From Sinohyriopsis cumingii (Eukaryota; Mollusca; Bivalvia; Unionida; Unionidae), in contig CM068825.1 of NCBI GenBank assembly GCA_028554795.2, positions 94,980,951-95,044,950 of the forward strand: a stretch of DNA of 64,000 nt. The letters are read 5' to 3'. Both the position numbers and the translations under genes were made by a program. Shown here in pieces: positions 4,888-64,000 of this stretch (its first letter is position 1; the number at the start of each line of letters is the position of its first letter). Below the pieces are notes generated by a model, which did not search any database, had not been told where the DNA came from, and saw nothing but the letters and a program-made list of their open reading frames with translations.

Positions 4888-5900
4888 TAATCCCGTTTTG
4901 TAATGCATGTTTCATCCTTGTTTTGGTCACCTAATTAGACTGTTGCTGTTTTAATTAATATTATACCCAACATTTACTCAAGATTACAGTTATTTTTCGA
5001 TGTACATTACTCAGTTCAATTATGGTCATCTTTTTACGTATATACAGCAGTTTGGAAATTTACAAGGTATTTCTTATCTCAATATTTCGATGATAAATAC
5101 GTCATTAGTTGTATCATGTATTAAAGTATTTGTTACAAATAGATAACTTTTAACATTACATGTAGTGTAACAATTGTTTGAAAATGTTGTAAAAGTATAT
5201 TTTGTAGATATTTTAGGTTTAGAATTCCACAATAATACTGCAGTAAGTTCTGGACTATTATGTTCTGATTAATTTCGCATCTGCCGAACATTCAGTCGTC
5301 AAGCAAATTTAGGCTTGGGTTCAAATCCCACATCTGACACCATGTTAGGTTTAAAACTTAGTAGTAGAATACCTGGATCCAGTCCTCGACTTCATTCATT
5401 CTAGTTAAAATGCCCCTAGATTGATTTCAGTTAGAGATAGAATAGACACTCTCAGACTCACAAAAATTCTACTCTGTAACTATAAGCATTTGTTCATTAG
5501 TGACATCGGTGACCTGAGTTTACCCTATCAACATGCGAGTCCAGAGTAATTATCAGTCTAGCCTTTGTAGAGGCATTTTACCAACAGAATTCTCATATTC
5601 TTATATAAATATTTTGAATGGACTTATTTTTGTAAAGTATCATGCACACAGGATTTAATACTATTCTTTAGAATTGATATTCATATATGTAGTTTACATA
5701 CATTGTCATCGATCTGTTTGCACATGTGTTGGGATTTTAATGTATCTCATACATCTAGTTTTATTGTAAATATGTTCCAAACGCCTTCCTCTATGTTTGA
5801 CATTGTAGTAATTGGTTTGTTAATTAACTCGACTAGAGGAACTATTTTTTATGTTACAACGGTTACCAGCTTTAATAGAAATTTGTGAATGTTGCATCTG
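4870..5900. repeat. old paralogous segment A (left copy)
   Basis: This segment matches 26,075-27,095 and 49,740-50,765 with scattered substitutions and small indels. A shared landmark is the block around GGGTTCAAATCCC. Similarity to 26,075-27,095 is clearly lower than between the two 23-kb units, so this duplication is older. The homology crosses the left breakpoint of the recent duplication at 5,420 without a change. Confidence 0.75.
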
Positions 5901-6479
5901 CATATGTCTATTAATTTCCTACCTCTTGTCGCAGTTTAAAAGACTGAAAAATCATCTTACAAATCACATGGCCAATAACAGTCTTTTCAAGTGCACTGGA
6001 TCCAGCAAGGGAACACGTGTGTCACGGATTGATTAAGATAAATGCAATGAACTGACAACGAACAGTGCAAAACTAGTATCTAAGTAGCCTAAGCGCTTTC
6101 GACTCTTAATGAGTCTTTTTCAAAGGCAAAAAACAAAACATAGAAAAGACAAACAAACAAAACACAAAAACCGTTGTGTTTGCAAAACTGTACATGTCTG
6201 TTTCTACGGGAATTAAACCTTTAAATGTATTATGTTTCAACTAGTTTATTTCAACTTGTTGCGGATGCTCGAAAATATTTTTATTTCTTTAGAAATCGAT
6301 GAGCCATAACGACATCTGTTTTTTATGTAAATCTATGGAAGCGCAAATTCTATCCCAGAAATTTCATTATTATAGTAGTAAGTATAGGCTATTAAGCAAA
6401 TTTAGAGAATTATTTTAAAAAAATGTGTCGGCTGCAGAAGATAATTTTATTTGTGCATGGCTGTCTTTTTCTAGTCTCT

Positions 6480-6719
6480 TTAGTTTAAGCTGCTTGCTTT
6501 CAATGTTCTAAGGCGGCGTATCCAGTAAGATTCCTTTTCTTTCCTAGTTTCAGAACTCAAGTTGGGGTTGTGAGCAATTACAATAAGTGTTATATCACTG
6601 AAAGTGTGGCCTACTAAAATATGGAAAAAAAGGAAAAGGCTGATAGGATACCATTTATCCTGATCTACCATCCAGACAACCCCAAAGTAGGTAATTTTCA
6701 TCGAGAAACACTGGCCCAT
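6480..6719 (-). pseudogene. Penelope GIY-YIG endonuclease, C-terminal fragment
   Basis: The minus-strand frame ends with GHTFSDITLIVIAHNP, then ESYWIRRLRTLKASSLN and a stop. This is the typical ending of Penelope-like element proteins, where the GIY-YIG nuclease closes with an ESxWIxxLRT block. Only about the last 45 codons (near 6,614-6,480) look authentic; the preceding residues are read-through. The rest of the domain is missing on this strand, so this is a truncated piece placed head to head with the plus-strand fragment. Confidence 0.7.
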
Positions 6720-6720
6720 C

Positions 6721-7213
6721 GTGGAATCCTCAGACGTACTAAAGTTAATCCTCCCGAATAAACCTGTAGTAGCCTACCGGAGACAAAAAAACATCAAAGG
6801 CATCCTAGTCAGGGCGAACCTAACGCCAATAACTAATCAAGAACACCCTTGTCAATCTGGACCCTGTGGCGATAAAAGGTGCAAAACCTGTCAACATATG
6901 ATAGAAACCTGGCTGTTTTCTAGCAACTTGACTAGAAAAAAACCTAAACTTACATGGTCCAAACAAAATGTGCAAAACAGATAATGTAATTTATCTCATC
7001 ACATATAAAATGTGTAGCCTTCAGTTTGTCGGAGAAACTGAAAAGCTACACAAAATGATCGACCTTCATAGATCTGATTGGATGACAAAGAAACTGTACA
7101 GAAGCCCGATCGCAGAAAACTTCTCCCCATGCCACATTTTCAGTAACATAACACTTATTGCATTTGTTATATTTGCCTTTGAAAAAGACTCATTAAGAGT
7201 AGAAAGCGCTTAG
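6721..7213 (+). pseudogene. Penelope-like element, cysteine motif and GIY-YIG fragment
   Basis: The first frame (6,721-6,984) contains NKPVVAYRRQKNIKGILVRA and then CQSGPCGDKRCKTCQH, the Cys-rich linker that precedes the nuclease in Penelope elements. The second frame (6,968-7,213) continues with NVIYLITYK, FVGETEKLH and HRSDW, the GIY-YIG core in its usual Penelope form, then ITLIAFVIF, where the frame decays. A frame change lies between the two near 6,968-6,984. The RT domain that should come first is absent. The protein would nick DNA to prime reverse transcription; this copy cannot. Confidence 0.75.
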
Positions 7214-54455: not shown

Positions 54456-54572
54456 TTTATTTAGAATACTTAAAATTCCCATTCACCTCCATCCTCAGCT
54501 CTGTCCTAACACTAATCCCTCGTAACTCTGAGGGTCAAGCGAGGCAGTTGCTTGTAAGTAGTGAATAGGGAT

Positions 54573-54835
54573 AGTATAGCGTCAATGGGACTTATCATTA
54601 AAAACACCCCTGGGAACATATAGCGTCAAGGGAAATTTAACATGGAGAAAAATCGTGGGAACATATAGCGTCAAGGGAATTTAACATAGAGAAAAATCGT
54701 GGGACGATATAGCCTCAAGAGGAATTGAACATGGGAATTGGGACTGTATAGCGTCAAAGGAATTTAAACAGGGTGGGACTGTATAGCGTCAAGGGAAATT
54801 GAACATGGGATTTTTTTTTAAAATTTTTTTTAAAA
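54573..54835. repeat. TATAGCGTCA tandem repeats, candidate left terminus of the virus-like element
   Basis: Six copies of TATAGCGTCA (one has TATAGCCTCA) start at 54,575, 54,619, 54,664, 54,708, 54,747 and 54,782, spaced 44, 45, 44, 39 and 35 bp, within longer imperfect units containing GGGAA..TTAACAT. The block separates AT-rich host-like DNA from the gene-dense element. Polinton ends begin with AG; AGTATAGCG at 54,573 would fit. The matching right end would lie outside the window, so this is inference. Confidence 0.5.
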
Positions 54836-54856
54836 AAGGGTAGGCAATGGAAAGGC

Positions 54857-54896
54857 TATCTCTTTTCGAGAAATATGGCTGGCCCTGAAAAGGGCC
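54857..54896 (-). terminator. histone-type mRNA 3' stem-loop and downstream element (basic protein gene)
   Basis: On the minus strand AAAGGCCCTTTTCAGGGCC (stem-loop 54,896-54,881) is followed by AGCCA and, about 14 nt on, CTCGAAAAGAGA. The 6-bp stem with TTTC-type loop and AAA/ACCCA-type flanks matches the metazoan replication-dependent histone consensus, and the purine-rich block matches the U7-binding downstream element. The stem starts 25 nt after the stop codon of the 77-codon gene. A 1-base departure from consensus occurs in the 3' flank (AGCCA instead of ACCCA). Confidence 0.88.
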
Positions 54897-54920
54897 TTTG
54901 GGTTTATGTTAATGTATTCA

Positions 54921-55154
54921 TTAACATAAAGGGCACCGCATTGGTCTTCTTCTTGTCCTTAGGCTGCGTCTCACTGTTGGTCCGTAAATCAGCACTCTTT
55001 TCAGGCATCCTTGTCTTTCGACGTAGATCCTACGTATCCACAGGCTGGTGTTTGTCCTGTGGACAACGGTCCATTTGGATCGGACATACATGAGCATGTC
55101 CGTCCGGAACATCAATGAAGACACAAGCGTAGAAGATTGCACATCCGTCCACAT
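54921..55154 (-). CDS. small basic protein, function unknown
   Basis: Frame of 77 codons. The start ATG at 55,154 lies in the context TTCAAGATG, the same as the polymerase gene, and 52 bp after a TATA box. The product is strongly basic, with Arg clusters toward the end (TVRRSLRTRRRPMRC) and no acidic region, signal peptide or membrane segment. It is not a core histone by sequence. Basic, small and S-phase-type processed, it could be a DNA-condensing virion core protein, as basic core peptides are in adenovirus-like viruses; that is inference. It is divergently paired with the 195-codon gene. A shorter alternative frame (MPEKSADLRTNSE, 35 codons, ending near 54,903) overlaps its end and is less convincing. 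Confidence 0.6.
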   Translation of the reverse strand: MWTDVQSSTLVSSLMFRTDMLMYVRSKWTVVHRTNTSLWIRRIYVERQGCLKRVLIYGPTVRRSLRTRRRPMRCPLC

Positions 55155-55373
55155 CTTGAAGCGACGAGAACAGGTGAATCAATGCACTGAACTGCGCTTA
55201 TTTATAGGTACAGGTAGGATTGAAACGGATTGAGTTCATTCACCAATCCGAACACGCGTTACAAAATTCAGTTAGCCCGCATCCAATCCGAAGAGAGCAG
55301 TCTGTGACGTCTGTTGGTCTATATAGATTCGCTAGCGCTTGTGCGCAGTCAATCTATGCGACAGTGATTCAAC
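55155..55373. promoter_or_regulatory. bidirectional promoter of the divergent pair
   Basis: A 219-bp gap between opposite start codons. The minus-strand TATA box TATAAATA lies at 55,206-55,199 and the plus-strand one, TATATAG, at 55,320-55,326. CCAAT boxes lie at 55,243-55,247 and 55,283-55,287, each followed by CCGAA. Compact divergent promoters with TATA and CCAAT boxes are typical of H2A-H2B pairs, which fits the histone-type 3' ends of both transcripts. Confidence 0.7.
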
Positions 55374-55961
55374 ATGACGGAAACTCAGAAAACGATCCAT
55401 TGGGCTGCACCAACAGGGGAGACTGCCCAAGGGAACCCGGACTTACTTTCAGAAGAGGTGAACTGGGATTTTGTGGATTTTCTCTCCTCGCAAGAATTAG
55501 TTCCGGAACCTGCGTTACCTTCTTCATTACCGCAAGTGGAGAATTTTAGACAGAGACAGAAAGAAGAATTGGAGAAATTTATACAACGACAAAAGGAAGC
55601 GGAACAAGCTTTTCTCCTACAGCAACAGCAGCAAGAAGAAGAGGTAAGAAAAAAACAACAGCAACAACAGCAAGAAGAAGTAGCAGCAGCAAAGAAACAA
55701 GAGGGTGAAAATCAAACGGTCACGGTACTGTTGGACATTTTAGCGGAGTTAAGGAGTCTGAAACAAATGTATCAGACTTCTTTATTACGACCGAAGAGAA
55801 TACGACCTTCCCGAGCTAAACACGTCAGCCCTGTGACTAAGCCTACTGTACCACCCTTAGTGATTTCAACCCAATCATTATCATCATCATCAACATTACG
55901 CAGTCCAGAAGTAGGCCTTGGCCGTGGCAAAGGCTTAAGGCAGTTAAAGTTGATTGCTTAA
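55374..55961 (+). CDS. glutamine-rich coiled-coil protein, function unknown
   Basis: Frame of 195 codons starting 54 bp after a TATA box. Residues 1-50 are acidic and polar. Residues 55-110 form a charged coiled coil with two Gln tracts (83-87, 95-100). Residues 115-135 are a leucine-rich helix (VTVLLDILAELRSLK). Residues 139-150 are basic (RPKRIRPSRAKH), a possible nuclear signal, followed by a Pro/Ser-rich end with GLGRGKGLRQLK. No enzyme motif. The stop codon is 26 nt before a histone-type stem-loop, and no polyadenylation signal is close. It could be a structural or scaffolding protein; I do not recognise a family. Confidence 0.75.
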   Translation: MTETQKTIHWAAPTGETAQGNPDLLSEEVNWDFVDFLSSQELVPEPALPSSLPQVENFRQRQKEELEKFIQRQKEAEQAFLLQQQQQEEEVRKKQQQQQQEEVAAAKKQEGENQTVTVLLDILAELRSLKQMYQTSLLRPKRIRPSRAKHVSPVTKPTVPPLVISTQSLSSSSTLRSPEVGLGRGKGLRQLKLIA

Positions 55962-55987
55962 ACTCACCCCTTCACCATGAAGAAAAA

Positions 55988-56025
55988 GGCCCTTTTCAGG
56001 GCCACCCACATTTCTCGAAAAGAAA
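55988..56025 (+). terminator. histone-type mRNA 3' stem-loop and downstream element (coiled-coil gene)
   Basis: AAAAAGGCCCTTTTCAGGGCC (stem-loop GGCCCTTTTCAGGGCC at 55,988-56,003) is followed by ACCCA, the exact histone 3' flank, and then CTCGAAAAGAAAT at 56,015-56,027. Every conserved position of the stem-loop-binding-protein site is met. The whole block is a near-perfect inverted copy of 54,857-54,900. Confidence 0.93.
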
Positions 56026-56027
56026 TA

Positions 56028-56250: not shown

Positions 56251-56724
56251 TTAGTCTCTCTGTTTTTTAAATTTCTTCACTGTCTTTTCCTCATTATCTT
56301 CCCTTCTTCTTTTCTTCTTCTCCTGTTTCTTTGCCTCTTGTAAATAGAATTGTCTTCTTTCTTCCTCTTCTTCCTCTGAAGAATCCCTCTCTTCTTCCGA
56401 AGAATCCCTCTCTTCTTCTGAAGAATCCCTCTTTTCTTCTCACTCCTCTTGTTTCTTTTTTGGGCAATCTGGAGACCAATGTCCTTTTTCTTTACAATAA
56501 TAACAGGTATCTTGACTTTTGTCTTTTTTAGTCCCTGTTTTTGTTCTTTTTTGACGGTCTGGACACTCTGAAGACCAATGCCCTTTCTTCTGACAGATAT
56601 AGCAAGTATCTTGACTTTTATCTCGAAAGGAAGGAGAGTAGTCCGTAGGCTGGTCTGAAGAGAATTTTCTAATGACCCCTCGCAAAGTTCTGACGAAACG
56701 TTCCATCTGGTTAGTCTCTTCCAT
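56251..56724 (-). pseudogene. CCHC zinc-knuckle protein with acidic RDSSEEE tail, one in-frame stop
   Basis: The start is ATG at 56,724 (MEETNQMERFVRTLRG), 63 bp after a TATA box. Two retroviral-type knuckles follow: CYICQKKGHWSSEC and CYYCKEKGHWSPDC, both CX2CX4HX4C. A TGA at 56,442-56,440 then interrupts. The same frame continues past it with three RDSSEEE repeats, a poly-Glu stretch and a Lys/Arg-rich end, stopping with TAA at 56,253-56,251. The repeat regularity in this frame argues that the tail was coding, so the TGA is probably a lesion. Knuckles of this type bind single-stranded nucleic acid; a retroelement origin is possible. A parallel open frame over the same bases gives only low-complexity peptide. 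Confidence 0.7.
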
Positions 56725-56858: not shown

Positions 56859-59800
56859 ATGAAACGATCTAATTCATTCGAGAAGAAAGAAGAAGAAGAA
56901 AGTAAGAGGCAGAAAAGTGATCTATCGCCTCGTACCAGGGCTGAAATCTTGGCACAAATTCATGCCAGTGATTTTGAAGAGGACATGAGTGAACCAGAAT
57001 CAGAACCCTCTAAACCAAGTTCACCACCCTTAGTCAACCCTGAAAAGTACTATTCCATTCGAGAGACGGAAAAGCGTTCCTCTAGAAAATTTAGAACCAC
57101 GGCTTACAAATACACAGTGAAGTTTAAAGATTTCAAGGCTGAAGTGCCGTTAGAGAAAGCAGAAGTGTTCATCACTGAGGTGTGGGATTCTTTGCTCACT
57201 GCACTCAAGCAACAATGTCAACCCAAAGAAGACGACCGCTTGAGACTTTCCATACAACACGACGGTTTGAAATCCCATGTTTGGATCGAGTTTAGCACCC
57301 CTGCAGAATTGACCGCTTCCAAAGTCATGGACAAGATTCAACACGTGCAACAATCTAATGACCAGTTTGACATCACCGATGGAAAAGCCACATTGGACAT
57401 GACCCACGTCTCTCCTCCTCAAGGGACCGGACGCAAAAAGATGTTATTGGTGAACGAGCTTCGCAGCATTAAGCGTAGCCGTGTCCAAATTCACAATCCT
57501 CATGACCAGATGTGTTTAGCCCGTGCCATCGTGGTGGGACGAACCTATGCCAACAAGAACGACACGGTAGAATGGAAAAGAGCCTGGAAAACTATTCAAC
57601 AATCGGACAGAGCCAAACAACGAAACGAAGCAGAACTCCTGTTGCAACAAGCTGGCCTGTCCAAAGATACACCCTGTGGCATTCCTGAGATGCAAAAATT
57701 GCAAGATGCCCTAGCTCCACGATACACCTTGAAAGTGCACCCTCAAGAAGTGCGCGGGCCTCTGTTGTTTCGAGGGCAAGATTTTAAGGACGGAAAATAC
57801 ATTCATGTTTATCATCACGATGACCATTTCGATACCATTACCAGTATCACCGGATTCCTGGGATACGGTTATTACTGTGAGAAATGTGACCATGGTTATA
57901 ATAATCGAGAGCAACACAAGCATTGTGGATTGAAATGCTCAGGATGTTTGGCCTCTTCACCCTGTCTGAGCGAAGAACCAGTGCCTTGTTCAACTTGTCT
58001 GTGCACGTTTGTCAGCCCTACCTGTTACCAACAACATCTGAAAACGCAAGGTTCACAGAAGAAATGTGCTTGTCAACTCCTGAGATTGTGCCCTACGTGT
58101 GAACAAGTCATATGTACCAATGCTGCCAAGGCACACGTATGTCGAGGAAAGAAAAAATGTCACATTTGTCACCACATTGTGGACTTGGAACACCAATGCT
58201 ACGTGCAAAAATACCAACCCCCACCAGAAAAAGAGGACGGTCACAAGAAGAAAGGCAATTTCATCTTTTTCGATTTCGAATGCATGCAAGAGACCGGCAT
58301 TCACATTCCTAATTTCTGCGTGGCTCATCGAGCGTGCGAGAAGTGCATTCAAGAACCTATCTTCAGTCATTGCCCTCACTGCAGCAAGATTCCTGGAGGA
58401 CGTGAAAAAATCTTTCGGGGACCGAACACGCTAGCCGATTTTGCCCAATGGGTCTTAGACCCGTCGACAAGACGTGGAGCCAAGAGGACATCGAACGTTA
58501 CGGAGATTGTCATCGTCATGCCACGGTGATGGCTCACAATTTTTCCGGATACGATCGACAGTTTCTTCTCAGATACTATACGGAACATGGCACCGAGCGT
58601 CCTAAAGTGACTTTGAACGGAGCCAAAATCATTTTCATGCAAGTGGGACAAGTACAGTTTAAAGATTCGATGAGCTATTTGGCCATGCCTTTGAGTCGAA
58701 TGCCTAAAACGTTTGGAATGACAGAAATGGCTAAAGGGTACTTTCCACACTTTTTCAATACGGAAGCCAATCAACACGCCGTTCTACCCCATTTACCTGA
58801 GGCTCACTATTACGACCCCGACAACATGCGTACCGAACAACGAGAAGCTTTCTACGCTTGGTACCAGGCTCACGCCTCGGACCCTTTCGACTTTCAGGAA
58901 GAAATGCTAAAGTATTGTCGTTCCGACGTGGACATTTTACGGCGTTGCTGTGGAAAATTTCGAGAACTGTTCATGGAACACGGAGGGGTCGATCCTTTGA
59001 AAGAAGCTTGCACCATTGCCAAAGCGTGTTCCTTAGTGTATCGACAACGATTCATGCCTGAAAACACCGTGGCTGTCATCAGTCCTCAAACGACCCACTT
59101 TGTCAAACGTCAATACTCGGTCAAAGCCCTACGTTGGTTACATTACTTGTGCGACAAGGAAGTCAAGTGGATTCAGCATGCCCGCAACGGAGGGGGCGAA
59201 AAGACCATCGGAACGTATTCGGTCGATGGCTGGGACTTAGAAAACCCCAAGATCGTGTACGAGTTTAACGGTTGCTTATTTCACGGATGTCCCGTCTGTT
59301 ACCCTGACCGTGGCACTAAAAATCAGTTTTTGCAACGAACCATGGAAGACTTGTACCAGGACACTTGTCAGCGTCGCCTAAAGTTAGAACAGCAAGGATA
59401 CCAAGTGGTGGAAATGTGGGAACACGAGTACGATCACCGTATGAAAACCGATCTCGAGTTTAAACGCCTCGTGGAAAGTTACCAGTTAATGGACCCGCTG
59501 AACCCGAGGAAAAGTTTGTAAGGAGGAAGAACCAATGCCACCTGTTTGCTGTACCAAGCCGACGAAGAGAAAGGAGAAGAAATCAAATACTTGGACGTGT
59601 GTTCGCTGTATCCCTACGTGTGCAAATATTGTCGCTTTCCTGTAGGGCACCCGCAATTGCTGACGGAACACATCGACCTGGTCAACATTCGACAATACGA
59701 AGGCTTGATCAAGTGCAAAGTTTTGCCTCCCACGAACCTATACCATCCCGTCTTACCTCACCATTGTCAAGGCAAACTGATGTTTCCCTTGTGCCGTACT

Positions 59801-60910
59801 TGTGCCGAAACGTGCAACCAAGACCAACCTTGTCAGCACAGCCAGGAAGAACGGGCCTTGACGGGAACCTGGGTCAGCGTAGAATTGTTCAAAGCTCTGG
59901 ACATGGGATACCAACTGTTAGAAGTGTACGAAATTTGCCACTTTCCCAAGACACAACAATACCGCAAGGGTGACCCTACTCAGAAAGGCATTTTCGCCGA
60001 CTACGTGGATGCCTTTTTGAAACTGAAGCAAGAAGCCAGCGGCTATCCTTCCTGGTGTCACACTCCCGAAGACCAAATAAAATTCAAAGAGAAATACTAC
60101 GAACAAGAAGGCATCACTTTAGACCACATCGAGAAAAACGAAGGCAGGCGATCGTTTGCCAAAGTGATGTTAAATTGCTTGTGGGGTAAAATGGCACAAC
60201 GACCGTGTTTACCCAAGACGGAATATTTGACAGAACCTTCCCGCTACTTCCAGATGATTCACGACAAAACCAAATACATGAAACACGTGGACGTCGTTCG
60301 AGAGAATTTGATCTTGGTCAATTACGAAGAAGATCTGGACTTTGTACAAGACGACCCTTTTGGAAATGTCATCATTGCGGCTTACGTGACAGCCCATGCT
60401 CGCTTAAAATTGTACGAAGCTTTAGAACTGTTAGAAGAACGCGTCCTGTACTTTGACACGGACAGTTGCATTTACATCCATCACCCGATTCAACATCACC
60501 CTGACATCGAAGGAGACCGTTTAGGAGCCTGGACAGACGAGCATCCCGACGACAAGATTCTAAGTTTCGTCAGTGGCGGTCCCAAAAATTACGGCTACGA
60601 ATACCGGGACAAACAAGGAGAAGTGCACACGACGTGCAAAGTGAAAGGACTGACTCTGAATTATCGTACCAGTCGTGTGGTCGACTTTGGGGTATTGAAA
60701 GAAGCCTTGCAATCGGGAGAGGATGGAAACTTTAAAGTGACCACCTATCAACCGAACAAGATTGTACGTTTACCCACTCACCACATCGTCAGTCGACCCT
60801 TGGAAAAAGTCTATCAAATTGTATACCAGAAGCGAGTTCGACTTCCCAATCATTTCACCTTACCGTACGGTCACGTCGGTATTGGTCTGTATATAAAAAA
60901 GGAACCCTAG
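56859..60910 (+). pseudogene. polB: family B DNA polymerase, Polinton/adintovirus type, two breaks
   Basis: Replicates the element, by family precedent with a protein primer. Frame 1 (56,859-58,529) has a charged N-terminus, a Cys/His-rich region (residues about 345-455) and Exo I (FFDFEC, near 472). Frame 2 (58,448-59,521) has Exo II (AHNFSGYD), a KGYFPHFFN block and Exo III (YCRSDVDIL). After an in-frame TAA at 59,519-59,521, frame 2 continues with GGRTNA, palm motif A (DVCSLYPYV), motif B (KVMLNCLWGKMAQR), motif C (YFDTDS) and KVKGLTLN, ending at 60,910. The frame changes near 58,450, between ADFAQWVLDP and the Exo II segment. All exonuclease and polymerase residues are kept, so decay is recent or the lesions are sequencing errors. 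About 1,350 codons in total. Start context TTCAAGATG. Confidence 0.93.
60890..60899 (+). promoter_or_regulatory. TATA box of the BIR gene
   Basis: TATATAAAAA lies 66 bp before the BIR start codon and overlaps the last codons of the polymerase frame, so promoter and coding sequence share bases. Confidence 0.65.
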
Positions 60911-60955: not shown

Positions 60956-61693
60956 ATGAATACTTTGAAAGAGACATCGTTCCAGTTTGGGGATTGTAAA
61001 AAAGTTGTATCTTCCTCTAGTGTGACTAATACTGGATGGATAAGACCCAGGCATTGCGACGGAAAATGTCCGGAAGGAAACTGCGATTGTCCATGTGGTT
61101 ACCATTGTAATTGCGTAACGGAGTTTGCAGACGAGTGCGATTGTGAGCCTTGCGATGTGTACGATGCTGTACGTTGTGACCTGAGCGATGCCGTAAAGCA
61201 TCATGGGAACTTTGTTCTCACTGCCCCTGTCATGGAAAGTGATGCTGTGCGTGTCAAACCTGAGGGATGCGAAAGCGATGCCGCTCGTCCTGTTAGACAT
61301 TTTACCGTGTTTAAAGGGGAATGTTCACCTTCACGTCTACCCCCCTACGGATGTCATCCAGCCCTGAGCAAACTCCTGTTCCTGTCACCCAACCCTCATC
61401 GAAACGAACCTGTGAAAAACGAATATTCGTTTCCTGTGCGTTTGTCGGAATACTGTGACTTTGAAAATCGTCTTCAATCGTTCAAAGGAAAATGGCCTAA
61501 GTATCTGGGAGGACCGACCCCCGAAGAATTAGCCAGAGCCGGATTTTTCTACTTGGGCGAAGGAGATAAAGTCAAGTGCTTCAGTTGCGGTGTGTCACTT
61601 CATCACTGGGAACCGCAAGATTCGGCCTACGTAGAACATGCTCGATGGTCACCGAATTGTCATTACTTACCCTTAGTGGGACCGAGACATTGA
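60956..61693 (+). CDS. BIR-domain protein (inhibitor-of-apoptosis-like) with Cys-rich N-terminus
   Basis: Frame of 245 codons starting AACAAGATG. The C-terminal domain (about residues 165-237) is a complete BIR: RLQSFKGKWP, ARAGFFYLGEGDKVKCFSC, then W-E-P-D and VEHARWSPNC. Zinc ligands follow CX2CX16HX6C exactly. BIR proteins of insect DNA viruses and hosts block caspases or act in cell division. There is no RING finger after the BIR. Residues 30-75 hold a dense Cys cluster (CDGKCPEGNCDCPCG, HCNC, CDCEPCD), and residues 75-120 contain repeated SDAV/SDAA motifs; I know no family with this N-terminus. Probably captured from a host; target unknown. Confidence 0.85.
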   Translation: MNTLKETSFQFGDCKKVVSSSSVTNTGWIRPRHCDGKCPEGNCDCPCGYHCNCVTEFADECDCEPCDVYDAVRCDLSDAVKHHGNFVLTAPVMESDAVRVKPEGCESDAARPVRHFTVFKGECSPSRLPPYGCHPALSKLLFLSPNPHRNEPVKNEYSFPVRLSEYCDFENRLQSFKGKWPKYLGGPTPEELARAGFFYLGEGDKVKCFSCGVSLHHWEPQDSAYVEHARWSPNCHYLPLVGPRH

Positions 61694-63463: not shown

Positions 63464-64000
63464 ATGGCTACCTCTGCTGTCTCTGCTCCCTCTTCCTCTA
63501 CTGTCAAAGTCATCGACGAACACTTAGATCGTGCCAGTTGGGAGGCTTTGTATCTTCGCCATCCCTTTAACATGCTCATTGCTGGACCTAGCGGTTCTGG
63601 CAAAACCGAATTCGTCAAACGTTTGATCGAACATAAACATCATTTGATCGATCGGCCACCGCAGCGGATCGTGTGGTGTTACAAAGAGTGGCAATCGGCG
63701 TACAACCTCTTGCGAGAAAGTCAAGGCGATTCCATCGTGCTTGCGGAAGGCATTCCTAAAGAAGACGACGGCATCGTCTCTGACTCCCGTCAAACCCATT
63801 TTGGTCATTTTCGACGACATGTTAGGAGAAGACGAAGAAGAAATTAAACTGTGGTTCACGCGCAAAGGGCATCACCGTAATGCCAGTGTCATTTACATCA
63901 CCCAAAATTTGTTTCAACAAAGTAAAGCCCATCGCACCATCAGTCTCAATGCGCATTACGTGGTCTTGTTTAAAAGCCCTCGAGATAAATCGCAAGTGCA
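63464..64000 (+). pseudogene. A32/FtsK-like DNA-packaging ATPase, frameshifted and cut by the window end
   Basis: ATG at 63,464 (context CACACCATGG). A Ser/Ala-rich lead of about 20 residues precedes HPFNMLIAGPSGSGKTEFV, a Walker A P-loop in the form typical of A32-like ATPases that pump genomes into capsids of Polinton and nucleocytoplasmic viruses. IVWCYKEWQ follows. Around 63,770-63,785 the frame changes by +1; the new frame gives PILVIFDDMLGE (Walker B), then VIYITQNLFQQ (sensor-like) and HYVVLFKSPRDKSQ at the window edge. All motifs remain, so only the single-base break disables it. The rest is beyond the window. Confidence 0.9.

Follow-up and report, generated by a model that had tools for sequence, protein, structure and literature searches.

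Histone-type mRNA 3′-end signals at the terminal genes of a Polinton/adintovirus-type element in Sinohyriopsis cumingii

The locus described here raises the question of why two virus-like genes should end in the signals of replication-dependent histone mRNAs. The window analyzed is a stretch of 64,000 nucleotides of the Sinohyriopsis cumingii contig CM068825.1 (GCA_028554795.2; positions 94,980,951 to 95,044,950, forward strand), in which the initial annotation had noticed two genes diverging from one promoter, each followed by a histone-type stem-loop. Metazoan histone mRNAs are a unique class without poly(A), as stated in the available text of PMC12775136, and a hairpin together with an HDE leads to a cleaved, non-polyadenylated mRNA via SLBP, U7 snRNP, and CPSF73 (available part of PMC9756948). 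We assign a probability of about 0.77 to the reading that an accessory-gene class at both ends of an amplified Polinton/adintovirus-type element uses the host replication-dependent histone 3′-end machinery.

A divergent gene pair with histone-type stem-loops

The pair and its signals comprise the following features:

54856..54901, minus strand: Histone3 stem-loop and purine block of the minus gene (hairpin 54881-54896; Rfam)
54921..55154, minus strand: minus-gene ORF, 77 aa, basic (pI 11.6), without Pfam or PHROG match
55199..55206, minus strand: TATA-like box TATAAATA of the minus gene (sequence read on the minus strand)
55243..55290, plus strand: two CCAATCCG boxes (starts 55243 and 55283) of the common divergent promoter
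55320..55325, plus strand: TATATA box of the plus gene
55374..55961, plus strand: plus-gene ORF, 195 aa, pI 7.9, one long predicted helix (residues 53-137)
55983..56027, plus strand: Histone3 stem-loop and purine block of the plus gene (hairpin 55988-56003; Rfam)

The two ORFs diverge from a spacer of 219 bp. In its short ORFs and in the TATA/CCAAT promoter from which they diverge, the element's pair resembles histone gene pairs.

Only two Rfam matches were obtained in the 64 kb window, both to Histone3 (RF00032; curated gathering score 34 bits) and both at gathering threshold, with 41.2 bits (E 9.6e-9) at 55983-56027 for the plus gene and 35.6 bits (E 1.2e-6) at 54856-54901 for the minus gene; the scores span all 46 positions. 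The hairpins lie 26 nt (plus gene) and 24 nt (minus gene) past the stop codons, and GAAAAGA starts 13 nt past the hairpin in both genes. On these grounds the canonical histone 3′ signals noticed at the outset are real, and they proved to be part of something larger. The element shares with the histone mRNA 3′ end (RF00032; SLBP, U7 snRNP) the 6-bp stem, a UUUC or UUUA loop, an A-rich 5′ flank, an ACCCA-type 3′ flank, a hairpin 24-32 nt past the stop, and, in the pair, the purine block 13 nt on.

Exactly two copies of the 16-mer GGCCCTTTTCAGGGCC, each perfect, are present in the window, against an expectation of 0.13 even when up to three mismatches are allowed. The hairpin with a GAAAAG block was found in none of 300 first-order Markov windows, in which the hairpin alone appeared 11 times. 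Stretches of 49 nt around the two sites fold with the hairpin at z-scores of -3.4 and -2.3, and 1 and 5 of 200 shuffles, respectively, folded equally well.

Both genes of the pair look to be selected as proteins (pN/pS <1). Measured against the window copy, pN/pS of the minus gene was 0.14 in both copy sets described below (n = 17 of 18 and 28 of 29), and that of the plus gene was 0.49 in the hairpin-fetched set (n = 13 of 18) and 0.22 in the protein-fetched set (n = 29 of 29). Matches that spanned <75% of the protein were left out, and the copies are not independent. Inner stops were present in 2 of 13 and 4 of 29 plus genes and in 2 of 17 and 1 of 28 minus genes of these sets. That the minus ORF might be spurious was rejected on the basis of its pN/pS of 0.14 and its two homologues. 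When it was compared with one of these homologues (P0021), 60 of 77 codons were identical, as were 2 of the 12 codons upstream of the ATG and 18 of the 28 preceding these. Several copies in the protein-fetched set carry a minus gene with approximately 40 synonymous differences from the window, while the adjoining plus gene is 96-98% identical, a pattern as if two old alleles were shuffled between elements.

The predicted structure of the plus protein, whose C-terminal part is basic, is one long helix (mean pLDDT 69), and that of the minus protein consists of four strands at a mean pLDDT of 49, from which no interpretation was drawn. The plus-protein structure had no match in BFVD at E<=0.001 (three at E<=10); by sequence, the PDB yielded two weak matches to the plus-protein alignment, none convincing, and none to the minus protein at E<=10. 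Neither protein matched a histone or any other family in Pfam, and the idea that the two proteins descend from those of a host histone gene pair was rejected for want of histone likeness in Pfam, PDB, and tblastn. A DNA-binding role, or one at the capsid surface like that of the 'Cah' class in the available text of PMC11071296, is possible for these proteins.

The carrier element and its other gene ends

The pair lies at one end of a complete insertion of 20,371 bp, which continues beyond the window in two 10-kb stretches (L151 and L152). Its further features are:

54551..54556, no strand: left copy of the target-site duplication CTTGTA (right copy L152:928-933)
54557..54905, no strand: left terminal inverted repeat (99.1% over 350 nt against L152:927-579)
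56440..56724, minus strand: two-knuckle zf-CCHC ORF (Pfam)
56859..60910, plus strand: PolB region in three pieces (56859-58529, 58448-59521, and 59780-60910), broken in the window copy
60956..61693, plus strand: BIR-domain (inhibitor-of-apoptosis) gene (Pfam, 83.8 bits)
63464..63847, plus strand: P-loop ATPase piece, FtsK/A32-like (PF01580, 24.4 bits, cut-off 24)
L151:8352-8711: ORF119, hairpin 32 nt past the stop (31.2 bits)
L151:9224-9532: ORF102, hairpin 30 nt past the stop (31.1 bits)
L152:561 (end of stop): outermost right gene, broken between two frames, hairpin of the terminal repeat 26 nt on (35.6 bits)

Polintons/Mavericks are recognized by terminal inverted repeats (TIRs), a 6-bp target-site duplication, and a length of approximately 15-25 kb. 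The element is of Polinton/adintovirus type by its PolB, rve integrase, ATPase, TIRs, target-site duplication, and size, which bears out the virus-like character first assigned to it. PF03175 matched the second and third pieces of the PolB region (E 6.5e-16 and 1e-8), and the first piece, without a Pfam match, was assigned by eye against P0025. Of 876 candidate PolB relatives, 674 reached E<=1e-5, the first named being from Ostrea edulis and Mercenaria mercenaria. Like Polintons/Mavericks and adintoviruses, the element, at about 20 kb, further combines an rve integrase (PF00665, E 1.9e-13) bearing a chromo domain (E 1e-7; L151:2688-3797), and the FtsK/A32-like ATPase, on which Pox_A32 scored 20.2 bits, below its cut-off of 22.8. 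A match to the adenain-like protease was weak and under its cut-off (PF00770, 16.2 bits against a cut-off of 21.3, E 0.0084). Three ORFs considered for a capsid role (L151:4638-5156, 5168-5587, and 5601-6905) had no Pfam match. Different from these known elements, its terminal genes have histone-type 3′ ends.

The outermost 30 nt of the TIRs are identical, and CTTGTA flanks both sides. A tandem array lies inside the left TIR, with a stem-loop and HDE-like block at its inner edge, and inverted arms (I1) of 63 nt are 83% alike. The array, of degenerate 35-45 nt units (TATAGCGTCAAGGG...), makes up much of the outer TIR (54567-54808, and approximately 675-917 of L152). Among other observations, the same frame stays open for 62 more codons beyond the end of the zf-CCHC ORF, and positions 5416-28590 and 28587-52233 of the window form a tandem duplication of approximately 23.5 kb, 95-98% identical in long pieces, both copies of which contain retroelement-like ORFs (labelled by eye).

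At the right end, outside the window, three more Histone3-type stem-loops follow stop codons at 26-32 nt. At least five gene ends of one element therefore carry the signal, 24-32 nt past the stop at all five, and the pair is not singled out as had first been supposed. The gathering score of 34 bits was reached at three of the five ends, the hairpins of ORF119 and ORF102 falling below it. These inner right-end hairpins read AGCCCU..AGGGCU rather than the GGCCCU..AGGGCC found elsewhere, with A-U instead of G-C as the closing pair; the full A-U form was seen in 10 cases. Two of the five signals belong to the outermost genes, one at either end of the element, and are placed at the inner edge of the TIRs, so that each TIR would also form the 3′ end of an outermost gene transcribed outward. 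In contrast to histone mRNAs, the genes concerned are viral and without histone likeness, five different ends belong to one mobile element, and two of them sit inside TIRs.

The companion claim that the other genes of the element use AATAAA gave way to a mixed picture. When six further ORF ends in the window were inspected, AATAAA was found within 300 nt of three, two of which, from overlapping ORFs, share one site, and it was absent within 600 nt of the ends of PolB, BIR, and ORF172. It also stands 255 nt downstream of the plus-gene stop and approximately 110 nt past the ORF119 stop, and poly(A) use by these two genes is therefore possible.

Copies in the genome and homologues elsewhere

A Histone3 search of the 2.9 Gb assembly gave at least 75 scored matches, all over the cut-off, from 589,472 first-look candidates; the window's own two hairpins are not among these 75, so that the true number is higher. 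The best 30 loci of these at least 75 comprise 18 copies of the pair (the hairpin-fetched set) and 12 loci with other genes, and tblastn with core-histone queries found no core histone in the 3 kb around any of the 30. An ORF of >=40 aa ends 15-21 nt ahead of the hairpin in 9 of the 12 other-gene loci, and 10 of the 12 have an additional A-type hairpin within the 3-kb locus, with six pairs in eight. Further charged, Lys/Arg-rich proteins end shortly before the same hairpin in other copies (L121, L124, L125, L126, L135, L137, and L140); they form at least two families, several members having a C-terminal pattern like KIRSWWRNRR.

Matches to the plus protein in the genome numbered at least 150 scored from 31,810 candidates and were 94-100% identical; counted by hand, 137 of 150 had no inner stop and 13 had one. 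The 30 best of these at least 150 matches (L153-L182, 96-100% identical, the first being the window's own) form the protein-fetched set. A plus hairpin with six pairs (G-U counted) is present in all 30 and the minus hairpin in 29, failing in L179. In the hairpin-fetched set, the plus hairpin is present in 16 of 18 copies (13 with six pairs, three with five) and the minus hairpin in all 18; L133 has no plus hairpin, and the place reported for L147 is spurious. Pooled over both sets of 48 copies, the hairpin follows the plus gene in 46 and the minus gene in 47, the opposite of the absence from related elements that the initial annotation had named as speaking against its proposal. Nearly all of the copies listed retain both the purine block and a flank of ACCCA or AGCCA, the minus-gene block being cut short in L122 and L123.

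The 30 protein-fetched copies are young and alike, and hairpin presence among them is therefore weak evidence of selection. Fifteen of the 18 hairpin-fetched copies were recovered through the minus hairpin, which makes their plus hairpin an independent test: it is present in 13 of the 15 (10 with six pairs, three with five), with plus proteins 76-94% identical to that of the window. Hairpins within the TIRs could be kept alike by recombination. In a set of 18 hairpins chosen by hand, 15 of them distinct, standard pairs fill 94.4% of the pair cells, compared with at most 64.4% when the pairing is slid. For the same hairpins, the covariation score and the paired cells were each reached by 19 of 500 shuffles, two-sided cell changes by 45, two-sided changed pairs by 376, and further pair types by 497, and all two-sided changes (G-C/A-U) fall in one hairpin pair. 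Covariation thus backs the reading as supporting, not strong, evidence.

Metagenomic protein homologues at E<=0.01 were obtained for the plus gene (20) and the minus gene (2). One homologue of each (P0008 and P0021) has a longest contig of 1455 nt and the same sources, which suggests that they come from one contig. The plus-gene homologue P0020 runs on into sequence resembling the first PolB-region ORF of the element, which shows that elsewhere, too, the plus gene is carried by an element of this kind. P0011 reads past the usual stop, and its tail encodes the hairpin site, with at least three pairs under every codon choice, all six under 48 of 1152 choices, and a GARAAR block in frame (back-translation by hand). 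The read-through tail of P0022 encodes a weaker version, in which the closing pair is impossible under any codon choice.

Searches of IMG/VR with the plus protein, a PolB piece, and the minus protein yielded no confirmed relative, and neither did a search of the genome contigs collection with the plus protein. When IMG/VR was scanned with three hairpin patterns, 5, 95, and 20 stretches were obtained; the C/A-loop pattern occurs 115 times in these 120 loci, 67 occurrences being pairable (G-U counted) and many of them one repeated sequence. None has a histone-like downstream block by reading, and Rfam found no Histone3 in the 13 of the 120 loci scanned. Since no relative of the element was recovered from IMG/VR, these negative results carry little weight.

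Proposed processing and its significance

If the signals act as they do in histone genes, host SLBP would bind the element's hairpin, U7 snRNP would pair with its purine block, and the pre-mRNA would be cut a few nucleotides past the hairpin, giving short, intronless, non-polyadenylated mRNAs. SLBP/U7 processing and the absence of poly(A) are inferred from the signals, their placement, and the copies. Such mRNAs would accumulate during S phase, or at any time when replication of viral DNA holds the cell in an S-like state, because this is the known behaviour of SLBP-type mRNAs. We also find it rather probable, with less assurance than the main reading, that at least five genes form a regulon working through the histone 3′-end pathway, the signal being built into the TIRs in such a way that a single module provides both the integration end and the mRNA end, and that this regulon, one of whose genes has at least 150 matches in the genome, may compete with host histone mRNAs for SLBP/U7.

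The hairpins might have arisen by chance, or one copy might recently have captured the end of a host histone gene; nothing but the likeness to host-type signals favours this, and it is scarcely credible when the hairpin recurs in 46 of 48 and 47 of 48 copies, at five ends of one element, and in the read-through tail of a metagenomic relative, with no core histone near the 30 best Histone3 loci. Two of the five hairpins lie within the TIRs and the I1 arms are inverted, as would fit a structural by-product of the terminal repeat with a role in DNA replication or integration and an incidental histone likeness. We consider this very improbable, given that the other three hairpins lie outside the TIRs, each on the coding strand and right behind a stop, that the ACCCA/AGCCA flank and the purine block are nearly always kept, and that the Rfam scores draw on all 46 positions.

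A different use of the same 3′ ends deserves more weight and still seems unlikely, namely that the signal allows escape from poly(A)-dependent control, for example by keeping messages translatable or exportable during shut-off, and does not serve S-phase timing. Identical cis signals would serve this end, and the other gene ends are without a clear common poly(A) pattern, so that genes could be sorted by 3′-end type. However, regulation over the cell cycle is the default for mRNAs of the SLBP type, and timing would accompany the signal.

In the literature searched, to which the adintovirus founding paper did not belong, no such gene class, TIR-embedded signals, or conservation is described. 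The initial annotation, which knew of no description in Polinton-like elements, was nearly right; the exception is the available part of PMC12220804, which gives, as a count only, six histone 3′UTR stem-loop matches in a scan of 8300 PLV/virophage genomes. Those matches belong to the same Rfam family and to the wider PLV group, but in that part they come without gene, arrangement, or conservation, and none is from the cryptophyte PLVs that are the topic of the paper. Viral histones (PMC9145170) and 'Histoid' genes (PMC11071296), as far as the available texts describe them, are likewise cases of DNA viruses borrowing from the histone world, but there the protein is borrowed and in this element the mRNA end. 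The terms stem-loop, SLBP, polyadenyl, and replication-dependent are absent from the searched text of PMC9145170.

If the main reading is true, a mobile DNA virus can take over the entire SLBP/U7 route for non-histone genes, and poly(A)-selected RNA-seq misses part of viral expression. The element's genes are natural non-histone substrates for testing the effect of the signal itself. For at least five genes of the element, message making and destruction may be in step with DNA replication, which, if true, would explain how an integrated virus senses S phase without a protein sensor.
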